Origin: a virus
Reading direction: 5' to 3' (one strand)
DNA: 20,160 nt
Virus record (IMG/VR): IMGVR_UViG_3300006749_000197
Location: 1-20,160 of that record
The translations under genes were made by a program, and so were the position numbers. The notes under the pieces were generated by a model. That model was not told the DNA's origin. It saw nothing but the letters and a program-made list of their open reading frames with translations, and searched no databases. This document shows, piece after piece, positions 5,166-17,991 of this stretch; position 1 is the stretch's first letter, and the number at the start of each line of letters is the position of its first letter.

Positions 5166-5549
5166 CTATTTTTTTCCTCCCTTAAATATTTGAGTTCCCT
5201 TAATACCAAAAATACTTCCCACGACAAGGATCCAAAGTGTACTGAACCAGGTCGGGAGTGCCGCGAAGTGTTCGAAAAAAGTTTTTACCTTATCAAGAGC
5301 TCCCGGATCCTCCGAGAAGACTCCCCAAGCGAGTACAATTATTGGAGCGGACAATATTATAAGAACGAACTCGTCCTTGTAATCGTTTTGTCTAGCTTCT
5401 AATAATTTACCTTGGTATTGTTCCTCACCTCGAGCTTGACGCTCTGCGTGTAGCAATTGTGCGTCTGACATTGCTACTTTTGCCTTTTGCTTGTTAGCAT
5501 AAATTTTTGAACCAGCACTTACTGCTAATTTAATTGCACTTAACCACAT
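5166..5549 (-). CDS. Holin-like membrane protein
   Basis: A 127-residue protein with a mildly hydrophobic N-terminal helix, then a charged Gln/Glu-rich helical region (about 20-58). Two clear membrane segments follow, FVLIILSAPIIVLAWGVF (61-78) and LPTWFSTLWILVVGSIFGI (98-116), and the tail is basic (KGTQIFKGGKK). This layout (amphipathic N-terminus, charged linker, C-terminal hairpin of membrane helices, Lys-rich end) matches phage holins, including the GTA-type three-helix family. No endolysin is visible in the window. The ribosome site is a good GGAG. Holin is a topology-based guess; a small virion membrane protein is the alternative. Confidence 0.6.
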   Translation of the reverse strand: MWLSAIKLAVSAGSKIYANKQKAKVAMSDAQLLHAERQARGEEQYQGKLLEARQNDYKDEFVLIILSAPIIVLAWGVFSEDPGALDKVKTFFEHFAALPTWFSTLWILVVGSIFGIKGTQIFKGGKK

Positions 5550-5871
5550 TATATTTCTCCTGTCTTCTAATACACATATATTCTATCAAAATATCGATGC
5601 AATCGTAAGCCCTACCACCTGAGAGCTTCCATTTGTACGTTTGTGACCAATGAGATTTTCTTAATCTAGGTTTTACTACTTTTCCACCAAAAAATTCGGC
5701 AAATTTATTTACAGAATCTTTATCACACATTTCAACAGAACATTGAAAGGATTTTCTACCATCTCCCTTACCCCAAACACCGAAACTTCCTTCGCCATCA
5801 AACAGTCCAGCCAAAAATATAATTTTATTTCTTTTTGGCAGCTTTTCGTAAGAATTTTTTAGCTTGTGCAA
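5530..5871 (-). CDS. LAGLIDADG homing endonuclease (single motif)
   Basis: A 113-residue ORF with FLAGLFDGEGSF at residues 19-30, a clear LAGLIDADG motif with E27 in the catalytic acidic position. After it come a beta-rich part and the family's typical C-terminal block (YKWKLSGGRAYDCIDILIEY, then RRQEKYNVV). With one motif it should act as a homodimer. The start is TTG at 5871 with GAGGA about eight bases upstream; there is no in-frame ATG. It overlaps the conserved 36-residue gene above it by 47 bases and the holin-like gene below it by 20. No intron or intein was seen in flanking genes, so it looks free-standing. Confidence 0.8.
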   Translation of the reverse strand: MHKLKNSYEKLPKRNKIIFLAGLFDGEGSFGVWGKGDGRKSFQCSVEMCDKDSVNKFAEFFGGKVVKPRLRKSHWSQTYKWKLSGGRAYDCIDILIEYMCIRRQEKYNVVKCN

Positions 5872-15457: not shown

Positions 15458-15683
15458 AAACGAGATTTGTCAGGAACGAGAACGAGATCCTGAACGAGCT
15501 TCCAGCATCACGCTGCACAGGCTCCCGCTGAAGGAACCAGCACCGGGCCGTTATTACTTATAAACGAGAACGAGAACGAGAAACGAGGGTACGAGCTTAC
15601 GCTTCAGGATCCAGCTGCACCAGCTCCTGAAGACTGGCCTGAACCTCCGGCCATTTAACAGGGAACGAGAACGAGAAACGAGG
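15458..15683. repeat. Dispersed GAACGA-unit repeats around the nuclease gene end
   Basis: Copies of a GAACGA-based repeat occur at 15458-15465, 15473-15499, 15561-15595 and 15663-15683. Others are at 13951-13968, 14604-14616 and 15311-15318. Positions 15568-15588 and 15663-15683 are identical over 21 bases, 95 bases apart, one just outside and one inside the nuclease coding region. The gene-free stretch 15395-15596 is otherwise made of these repeats plus CTGAAG/CCAGC-rich words; I see no convincing ORF there. Confidence 0.7.
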
Positions 15684-16004
15684 TTTCAGTAACCGAGGTT
15701 CGGTAAAACCGGACACAGGACACCTGTACAGTTTGAGTTTTCTCTCCGAGAGGGCCTCATTGCAGATAATAACTATACCACCTGCCTTGACATATTTATT
15801 GATCCAAACAACCTGCCACTTATTTAGCTTAGGATAACTGACATAATCTGATTTTAATTCCATCCAAAATACATTGCTAAAACCAACACAATGTATATCT
15901 GGAATACCATTGATTGTACTAGATTCTATGCGGGTAAAGAATACATTTTTAATATTCTTTTTTATTCTATTCCACAATAAAGATTCTCTATTTTTAGCTG
16001 CCAT
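15597..16004 (-). CDS. VRR-NUC type nuclease (PD-(D/E)XK fold)
   Basis: A 135-residue protein whose core fits the VRR-NUC/Holliday-resolvase-like nucleases. SLLWNRIKKNIKNVFFTRIE is an N-terminal helix carrying E27 on its far end. GIPDI holds D36, and FWMELKSD supplies the ExK pair E49/K51. KLNKWQVVWINKYVKAGG is the typical helix, followed by the strand GIVIIC. The domain seems complete by residue 100. The remaining tail (KPRFSFSFPVKWPE onward) is encoded by GAACGA repeats and GC-rich flanking sequence and looks added. It would cut branched or structured DNA during replication or packaging; no ribosome site is obvious. Confidence 0.78.
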   Translation of the reverse strand: MAAKNRESLLWNRIKKNIKNVFFTRIESSTINGIPDIHCVGFSNVFWMELKSDYVSYPKLNKWQVVWINKYVKAGGIVIICNEALSERKLKLYRCPVSGFTEPRLLKPRFSFSFPVKWPEVQASLQELVQLDPEA

Positions 16005-16310: not shown

Positions 16311-16491
16311 TTACAATACCTACTGAAGTGTTAAGTGTTGAGTTATGGATCTCGTTAAAAGCCTTGAGCCAGACAGACCAACTAGCTTTCTTCAATTTGT
16401 TCTGCTGTGCTTTCGACAACCTCGATGGTCTTTGCGTTATACCCATCGATTTTGTTTGAAAGTTCCTTGAGTTTACTTTCAAGTTCTTCAC
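16285..16491 (-). CDS. Possible small protein overlapping the terS 3' end
   Basis: A 68-residue frame from GTG 16491, which has GGAGGG eight bases upstream but lies deep inside terS. The C-terminal part, ASWSVWLKAFNEIHNSTLN, extends beyond terS through sequence with no other gene and looks protein-like. The first half is the shadow of terS and may not be translated; a TTG at 16395 would give a 36-residue product without overlap problems. The gene is plausible as filler between terS and the next gene, but the start is unresolved. Confidence 0.35.
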   Translation of the reverse strand: MKNLKVNSRNFQTKSMGITQRPSRLSKAQQNKLKKASWSVWLKAFNEIHNSTLNTSVGIVNVETKNKY

Positions 16492-16912
16492 GCGACATGC
16501 CCTCCAACCCGGTTACTTTAACTTCTTTTCTATCAACATACTGCCCTGCTAATTGGCCAGATCTATATTCAGCATTAATAGCAGCAGCATATTGTTTATC
16601 ACTCTCTGCACTCAATGCAATTCTTTCAAGTCTTTTGTAACGCCTAAGGTTATCACCCTCGTACTTCGCACATTCTTCTTTGTAAATTTTGTCCATGTAT
16701 CTAACAACATGTGGATTAAGTTTTCTATTTGTTAATCTAGATGCTATGACTGAGTAATCATTATCATTCTTACAATCAAATCCTGCTTCTTTAGCAGCAT
16801 CAGCTTTTGTAATGTTACCCCAGTTTTTAACATACACCTCAATGAATTTCTTTTGCTTTAAGGTCAAGTCGTCTTCAGTTCTGAGTTCTTTCTTTTTCAA
16901 TCCTCTAGTCAT
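16382..16912 (-). CDS. Terminase small subunit-like protein
   Basis: A 176-residue protein with LTLKQKKFIEVYVKNWGNIT then KADAAKEAGF near residues 16-44, the helix-turn-helix opening shared by Terminase_2-type small subunits. A helical middle part (YMDKIYKEECAKYEGDNLRR) follows, and then a C-terminal coiled-coil region (MSREELESKLKELSNKIDGY) expected for oligomerisation and TerL contact. It recognises the packaging site and stimulates TerL. The gene begins directly beside the iteron/inverted-repeat region, and terL is about 3.5 kb further on, with eight or more other genes between. The ribosome site is weak. A generic HTH regulator is the alternative. Confidence 0.7.
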   Translation of the reverse strand: MTRGLKKKELRTEDDLTLKQKKFIEVYVKNWGNITKADAAKEAGFDCKNDNDYSVIASRLTNRKLNPHVVRYMDKIYKEECAKYEGDNLRRYKRLERIALSAESDKQYAAAINAEYRSGQLAGQYVDRKEVKVTGLEGMSREELESKLKELSNKIDGYNAKTIEVVESTAEQIEES

Positions 16913-16915
16913 ATT

Positions 16916-17160
16916 TCTACTATATAGATTATTCTAACCTTTTGAAAGTGCAACCTAAAACAACCCAAGGTATCTATTTATGCAATATTATTGTTTAGGT
17001 GTCCCTCAGGGACACCATAGGGACACCACAGGGACACCATTAAAATCGTCTAAAAGCATTGGTATAATTGAATAATAGTCATTCAGGGACACCAGGGACA
17101 CCATATTAGGGTCCGATGTAAAATAAAATAATGAAAGGGTATAATAATCTATATAGTAGA
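16916..17160. repeat. Iteron cluster flanked by an imperfect 24-bp inverted repeat (possible origin or packaging/regulatory site)
   Basis: Five direct copies of AGGGACACCA start at 17008, 17019, 17030, 17085 and 17094, and one inverted copy (GGTGTCCCT) is at 16998-17006. The first three are spaced exactly 11 bases, one helical turn; the last two are nine apart. The cluster is enclosed by TCTACTATATAGATTATT at 16916-16933 and the same sequence in reverse at 17143-17160; over 24 bases (16916-16939 and 17137-17160) 22 match. Between are AT-rich stretches including TGGTATAAT at 17060-17068. This is the signature of a protein-bound origin, TerS pac site or operator array; which one is not decided by sequence alone. 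Confidence 0.8.
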
Positions 17161-17191
17161 ATTTAATAATTGACCACAAATACAGTAAATG

Positions 17192-17312
17192 CTACAAATA
17201 ATCATTCAAAAACGCGGCCACCATCATCCTTGCAGATATCCGGTGGCCGTTACCCATTAAAACTTGATCTCTCTGACCGAATACACTAAACTGTTAACTG
17301 AGCTTTTTTCAT
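17192..17312 (-). pseudogene. Small gene with apparent +1 frameshift (MKKAQLT / FSVFGQRDQV...)
   Basis: ATG at 17312 carries the shared AACTAACC leader and a purine-rich ribosome site, but the frame stops after eight residues (MKKAQLTV). Skipping one base leads straight into an open frame of 32 residues, FSVFGQRDQVLMGNGHRISA then RMMVAAFLNDYL, to a TAG at 17192-17194. The joined 39-40-residue product looks like a genuine small protein. Causes could be a disabling mutation, a sequencing error, or programmed +1 shifting at GTT-TAG. If only the ATG at the internal M is used the product is 21 residues. An 8-bp hairpin (17215-17222 with 17242-17249) lies within it. Confidence 0.4.
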
Positions 17313-17348: not shown

Positions 17349-17729
17349 TTATTCTTTTTTTCTTGGCAGGGTTAACCTGTCAATACCACGCTTAATAATT
17401 CTTCTCGATTCTTTATCATTAGCAGCTCTATATTTTCTATATTTATCTCGATACTCCATCCACATTAATTCTGTTTTATTAAATGTAATAGTTTTCTCTT
17501 GTCTTAATTTTAAAAATCTTTCTCTTACAAAGGTAGGGTCCAAATCAGCGTACCAACAAATTTTATCAAAATCTGCGTCACCATTTTTAAACCAATTATA
17601 ACTATCTTCCTTATTATAAGCGTCTACCTTACTCGATGTACTAAAGGCACAGTCTTCAAACGCCTGTACAATGATAGCTTGGAACAAGCGTTGCTCTGCA
17701 TGTTTAACATTCAATATAGCGTGTGCCAT
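17349..17729 (-). CDS. Conserved phage early protein, function unknown
   Basis: A 126-residue protein starting MAHAILNVKHAEQRLFQAII. The ATG at 17729 was chosen because it comes one base after the stop of the upstream gene; a GTG at 17771 would overlap it. Blocks seen are VQAFEDCAFS, DSYNWFKNGDADFDKICWYA and LDPTFVRERFLKLRQ. Another is TELMWMEYRDKYRKYRAAND. I recall this layout (LFQxxIVQAFEDA, WFxxxxxDFxxICxxAxxDP, WxxYRxxYxxYR) from phage proteins near replication and terminase genes; no activity is assigned. It resembles small DNA-binding proteins in being helical with basic ends. Confidence 0.65.
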   Translation of the reverse strand: MAHAILNVKHAEQRLFQAIIVQAFEDCAFSTSSKVDAYNKEDSYNWFKNGDADFDKICWYADLDPTFVRERFLKLRQEKTITFNKTELMWMEYRDKYRKYRAANDKESRRIIKRGIDRLTLPRKKE

Positions 17730-17730
17730 A

Positions 17731-17991
17731 TCAATGCCCAAAATTTTTAACAAGGTCGGTGAGTAATTCACGATATTGCCGCTGCTCCTTTTTAGGATGC
17801 CTCATGGCCATGAGTTCCGTGTAATCATCCAGAACACCATTAATGAATCGCATTTTACCTACACCATCTAATGAATCCAGGATCCTATAATGATAGTCAA
17901 TTAAAGCGTCTATAGTTAGATCATCGTCCATAATTACGCGACCGCAGAGTGGGAAAGATATCGATATGGAAAAAACTCTACGGTCACGCAT
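17731..17991 (-). CDS. Small hypothetical early protein
   Basis: An 86-residue reading from ATG 17991, which overlaps the upstream stop by eight bases (ATGCGTGA). A second ATG (17931) would give a more natural 66-residue acidic protein starting MDDDLTIDALIDYHYRI; neither has a clear ribosome site. The C-terminal half is helical (LDDYTELMAMRHPKKEQRQY, RELLTDLVKNFGH). It is one of three tightly coupled genes (18238 down to 17349). Function unknown. Confidence 0.5.
   Translation of the reverse strand: MRDRRVFSISISFPLCGRVIMDDDLTIDALIDYHYRILDSLDGVGKMRFINGVLDDYTELMAMRHPKKEQRQYRELLTDLVKNFGH

Follow-up and report, generated by a model that had tools for sequence, protein, structure and literature searches.

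A cluster of short, regularly spaced repeats lies directly upstream of a terS gene in a marine phage, which raises the question of what the cluster does and which protein reads it. The DNA analysed here (the window) comprises a complete IMG/VR fragment, 20,160 bases long, which aligns gap-free at 99.8% identity with positions 29777-49936 of the 63-kb contig G001. An earlier note had described an iteron array inside an inverted repeat, had proposed that one protein binds it cooperatively and had offered three candidate binders: an initiator acting at a replication origin, TerS on a pac site adjoining the terS gene, or an early regulator such as the ParB-like protein. Sequence comparison makes it highly probable that the element is a replication origin of this phage and of a large set of related, uncultivated marine phages, with iterons that would be bound by a 524-aa primase. 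For these phages, which are abundant in the sea, the literature that we searched describes no replication origin, and the titles and abstracts of work on pelagiphage origins contained nothing relevant.

An iteron array between inverted arms

Five exact direct copies of AGGGACACCA lie on the + strand at spacings of 11, 11, 55 and 9 bp, together with one inverted copy (Table 1); exact and one-mismatch matching confirmed the earlier count of five direct copies, three of them at 11 bp, and one inverted. With up to one mismatch allowed, the repeat matches six times in the window, against 0.64 expected, and all six matches fall within the element. No second cluster of the repeat was found in the window or in G001, and the earlier description of this as the only gap of its kind is acceptable. 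The first direct copy (D1) and the inverted copy together form a palindrome.

The inverted repeat around the array had been reported as 22 of 24 paired positions between 16916 and 17160. It is present and extends slightly further, from 16915 to 17161, with arms of 28 nt that pair at 26 of 28 positions (93% complementary) and stand 191 nt apart. By a shuffle test alone the arm pair is only suggestive, the best observed pairing (22/24) being matched by the largest of 200 shuffles (also 22). We regard the arms as real because they are conserved: both cores occur in 213 of 229 distinct relatives, and the 10-mer ATCTATATAG is confined to the element in 9 of 12 related genomes, a distribution that also led us to reject the arms as genome-wide phage promoters.

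Promoter-like sites occur at the element on both strands. The left arm holds a -10-like hexamer, TATAGT, within TTCAAA-16-TATAGT on the - strand, and the ATG of terS begins a few bases past this arm. The spacer between the iteron triplet and the iteron pair contains an extended -10-like site (TTAAAA-17-TATAAT, with TG before it) and has the consensus tAAAa..ga.TaAAA...TTG.TAt.atTga.TaATa among relatives; it is a candidate unwinding region, primer promoter or both. A hairpin to the right of the array probably serves, to judge from its sequence, as the terminator for the early genes that run leftward ahead of the element. Comparison of the element with Rfam gave no match of note.

Table 1. Features of the element and its neighbours in the window
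Feature	Position	Strand	Description
terS	16382..16912	-	Transcribed away from the element; PHROG 51, E 4e-8
Left arm	16915..16942	-	28-nt inverted-repeat arm; outward motif AATCTATATAGTAGAA
Inverted iteron	16997..17006	-	AGGTGTCCCT on the + strand; one mismatch to AGGGACACCA
Iteron D1	17008..17017	+	AGGGACACCA
Iteron D2	17019..17028	+	AGGGACACCA
Iteron D3	17030..17039	+	AGGGACACCA
A+T-rich spacer, iteron triplet to pair	17040..17084	+	Conserved in relatives
Iteron D4	17085..17094	+	AGGGACACCA
Iteron D5	17094..17103	+	AGGGACACCA; 9 bp from D4
Right arm	17134..17161	+	Same outward motif, AATCTATATAGTAGAA, as the left arm
Hairpin	17204..17249	-	CGGCCACC/GGTGGCCG with 19-nt loop, then CGTTTTTG on the - strand; by sequence
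140-aa protein gene	17349..17771	-	Right of the element; conserved

Two other features of the window were noted. Positions 15463-15690, close to where a 135-aa gene ends, are G+C-richer and carry three groups of GAACGAGA/AACGAG units at intervals of about 94 bp. On the - strand, 5530-5871 encode a 113-aa protein, located between structural genes, with a LAGLFDGEG motif like that of LAGLIDADG homing endonucleases.

The element is conserved at one genomic border

The double-iteron pattern alone matches more than 119 viral contigs. The whole element is found, with rigid spacing, at 323 viral loci representing 229 distinct sequences, and the repeats and arms are thus kept in relatives, as the earlier note had proposed to check. 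Of the 229 distinct relatives, 171 keep D1 and D5 precisely 86 bp apart, and 220 retain 8 or 9 of the 9 bases of the inverted copy. The left arm core is present in 228/229 and the right arm core in 214/229, the latter always 50-54 bp past the last iteron (214 of 214). An ATG lies 8-11 nt past the left arm core in 214 of the 228 relatives that have it, an arrangement that would suit, at the level of sequence, a leaderless late promoter. Conservation outside the iterons extends to the arms, the A+T-rich spacer and, on the right, a CCCC..GGGG palindrome; on the left, most relatives also have GTTCCCGCAAGA, which is absent from the window. Concerted change of the left and right arms was not clear (17.82 versus 17.62 ± 0.08 in shuffled comparisons).

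Short direct repeats at conserved spacing, and an A+T-rich region beside them, are features by which iteron origins are recognized, and both are found here; the conserved spacer and arms make up the A+T-rich part and form a putative melting region. The element lies at the point where the leftward replication genes end and the leftward terS/terL/portal genes begin. Immediately to its left the window has terS, and other phages have small genes that precede terS. Occupation of this same replication/packaging border in about 300 loci, and not of varying sites, led us to reject a miniature transposon with terminal inverted repeats, and no clear target duplication was seen at the arm ends. Inspection by eye of contig ends, as possible termini, revealed no clear spike at the element. 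The GC-skew plot that the earlier note had suggested shows no change there; skew is uninformative because nearly all genes run one way in these genomes. No isolate carrying the exact element was found in 50,697 phage records, and GTDB genomes gave no exact match. In the 83-kb contig G007, the gene block at 0-20 kb is seemingly repeated, in diverged form, at 58-80 kb, and this contig may be a chimeric or multi-genome assembly.

All repeats of an element change type together

The repeat is AGGGACACC in some phages, AGATACACC in others and AGACCCACC in part of a third set. These forms differ in the variable triplet of AG-NNN-CACC. The window and roughly half of the relatives found carry GGA there; the remaining half carry ATA. 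All copies in one element switch type together, with the exception of a small group in which the inverted copy, D3 and D5 read ACC while D1 and D2 are still GGA. Such mixed arrays (L100, L149, L185, L186 and L191), with AGACCCACC-like sequence at the first three of these positions and AGGGACACC at the other two, may represent an intermediate or an origin with two specificities. The concerted switching of the repeats argues that a single sequence-specific protein reads them. It therefore supports the earlier proposal of cooperative binding by one protein, which we treat as putative on this comparative evidence.

Three primase residues track repeat type

In a first screen of 24 phage protein families, only the primase had columns that fully track repeat type. 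The gene lies outside the window, beginning about 6.4 kb past its right end, and was assigned through the 99.8% identical contig G001 (56307-57881, 524 aa); in most genomes it is 7-10 kb from the element. A C-terminal motif reads PK-K-KF-Q-xI-[D/S]-SRHW in GGA phages and PK-[A/S]-KF-K-GI-Q-SRHW in ATA phages. When 46 distinct primases are compared over 540 columns, just three, 487, 490 and 493, have no residue in common between the types; they follow an i, i+3, i+6 pattern inside a block that is otherwise almost invariant. The resulting triad, K/Q/D-S with GGA and A-S/K/Q with ATA, tracks type in 46/46 distinct main-clade primases and is K-Q-S in G001. A distant ATA phage, G014, carries A-Q-Q, so 487 and 493 are the strict positions. 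The triad is K-Q-N in the mixed ACC/GGA phage G027, the sequence of which is partly masked.

A rule fixed on the discovery set (K487 predicts GGA; A/S487 with Q493 predicts ATA) was right for 14 of 14 primases from contigs outside that set, these contigs being relatives of the discovery set. A primase tree built without the motif, and with G014 left out, needs seven parsimony changes of type, three to four of them on well-supported branches. A sign test on independent pairs was not significant (p 0.125-0.25), there being few independent switches. In near sisters such as G022 (GGA) and G019 (ATA), a difference in type is accompanied by one in the triad. Across 37 families and 9179 columns, no other protein had conserved discriminating columns, and the only other columns that fully separate the types are variable residues, from families with just 4-6 ATA members. 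Given the number of columns screened, we rely on the conservation of the residues and on the outside test. We conclude that the evidence supports the first of the three proposed candidates, an initiator at a replication origin, and that, on comparative grounds, the primase encoded beyond the window is the likely initiator.

Other readers and other functions

The element could also be an origin that is read by another phage protein, such as the adjacent 140-aa protein, or by a host protein, with the primase residues acting as a linked marker. The 140-aa gene almost always neighbours the element (a homologue lies on the right at 287 of 323 loci), the protein has no family above the cut-off, and its best cross-type identity is 96%, so identity alone does not exclude it. 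We rejected it as the reader on the finding that none of its columns tracks type among 185 sequences. Moreover, genes closer to the element lose the link to type, whereas the primase at 7-10 kb keeps it, and the tracking residues have the regular i, i+3, i+6 spacing within their nearly invariant block. Reading by a protein other than the primase is consequently unlikely.

A promoter-operator, in which the repeats would be operators for the late (terS) operon and perhaps for a divergent transcript, with the primase conceivably as the regulator, would account for the promoter-like sites on both strands and for the -10-like TATA(A/G)T of the left arm, placed as for a leaderless mRNA at the distance from the ATG given above. 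The residues that track the repeats sit in a primase, not in a regulator, and the regulators nearby do not differ as the repeats do: 71-aa ribbon-helix-helix-like proteins are identical across both repeat types, for which we rejected them as readers, and the ParB-like proteins are nearly so. A promoter role of the arms is in any case compatible with an origin, and we judge an operator function in its place to be improbable.

A packaging site, pac or cos, bound by TerS beside its own gene would fit the location directly upstream of terS at the border of the packaging module. Lambda cosB and phage pac sites likewise have spaced repeats upstream of terS, and the cosB repeats bind TerS. Unlike in those sites, TerS here does not follow repeat type: identical 176-aa TerS proteins (L173 and L066) adjoin GGA and ATA arrays, which rules TerS out as the reader of the variable bases, and no TerS column tracks type. 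Many relatives also have other small genes separating the element from terS. The second candidate of the earlier note is therefore very unlikely. Binding by the ParB-like protein of the third candidate, at a parS-like partition or anchoring site, finds some encouragement in a ParB-like gene 1.5-2 kb from the element in many relatives and in the palindrome of D1 with the inverted copy, but is hardly credible given that ParB-like proteins 99.6% identical accompany both repeat types, which rules them out as readers of the variable bases, and that no ParB-like homologue was found in the element-bearing contigs G013, G014 and G019 (43-60 kb; two near genome size, one of 43 kb).

The primase has a predicted winged C-terminal tail

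The favoured reader, the 524-aa protein, is an archaeo-eukaryotic-type primase: it matches Pfam AEP-TOTE (E 1e-12) and PHROG 21866 (primase; E 6e-71), and in a fold search its N-terminal model matches a CRISPR-associated Prim-Pol (E 5.5e-8). The C-terminal model consists of strand, helix, helix, strand, wing and strand at low to moderate confidence (mean pLDDT 63 for the full length and 58 for the C-terminal domain alone), from which we infer a winged-helix-like tail. In this low-confidence model the triad is part of the predicted wing that separates strand 484-486 from strand 496-500. A fold search with the C-terminal domain returned nothing significant.

Comparison with known origins

The layout resembles that of satellite phage P4, for whose ori the record lists five type-1 repeats in one orientation and a sixth inverted, arranged as a triplet and a pair at 10-11 bp spacing; the element likewise has five direct copies, split three and two, and one inverted copy. 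Read on the opposite strand, its repeat begins with GGTG, the only part shared with P4, whose type-1 repeat is GGTGAACAG, in contrast to GGTGTCCCT (the form in the window), GGTGTATCT or GGTGGGTCT. P4 has a second cis region, crr, whereas only one repeat cluster is present in G001, G005, G006 and G008. The P4 alpha protein includes a helicase and is annotated as one 777-aa protein, whereas the helicase is a separate gene here. Both systems would have a primase with a C-terminal origin-binding domain, putative here on sequence grounds; that of P4 alpha is described as a winged helix (Yeo et al. 2002, in PMC10516667). An hhalign comparison with the P4 origin-binding domain was not significant. 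In geometry and in its proposed logic the element parallels the P4 origin; membership of the P4 type is not claimed. In SaPI Rep and SCCmec Cch2, the C-terminal domain of the replication protein likewise recognises short repeats (PMC7581432). Those readers are helicases with the origin beside the helicase gene, whereas here the candidate reader is a primase whose gene, in most genomes, stands 7-10 kb from the origin.

HTVC023P-type pelagiphages share the gene order primase, helicase, polymerase, terS, terL (PMC9599517); TerS and primase of the phages studied here are 54% and about 26% identical, respectively, to those of HTVC023P. Upstream of terS, in the gap at 11.3-11.9 kb, cultured HTVC023P has a similar 3+2+1 array with the repeat TTTTCCTAG instead of AGGGACACC: in L194:6524-6615, TTTTCCTAG occurs three times and then, after a 44-bp step, twice, the last copy being short, with TTAGGAA inverted. 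This array is a candidate origin in a laboratory phage; the HTVC023P-type genome paper mentions neither an origin of replication nor iterons (PMC9599517). Phage 023Pt_psg01 (L487:5014-5236) has paired GTGTGCCA and inverted copies inside a 47-nt, 70% inverted repeat, a candidate origin of the same plan. The arrays of these two phages suggest that the arrangement is older than the phage group described here.

Discussion

Conservation, rigid geometry, concerted repeat types and the tracking of type by the triad led us to infer both an origin and its binding by the primase, the element being an origin if a primase reads its iterons. The tail of the primase would bind the iterons, with the predicted wing reading the variable triplet of AG-NNN-CACC, and several copies would occupy the iteron triplet and pair. 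The bound primases could then bend and open the A+T-rich spacer, the arms or both, and their catalytic domains would lay the first primers at the opened DNA. The phage UvrD-like helicase and family-A polymerase, encoded nearby, would extend these primers, and the outward arms may double as promoters.

It may also be, with about even chances, that these elements form an origin family in which a stand-alone TOTE-type primase is the sequence-specific initiator. Several switches of specificity would then have come about through three wing residues, with all six iterons changing in concert to match, and would have left otherwise very similar phages with origins of incompatible types. Such switching perhaps evades competing phages or satellites that target the origin. 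The analysis offers a location, a likely initiator and a two-sided code of three primase residues against three iteron bases, for which natural alternative residue/iteron pairs exist. Origin recognition by a primase, and the natural switching of its specificity, thereby become directly testable, and origin type would be predictable from sequence in uncultivated phages.
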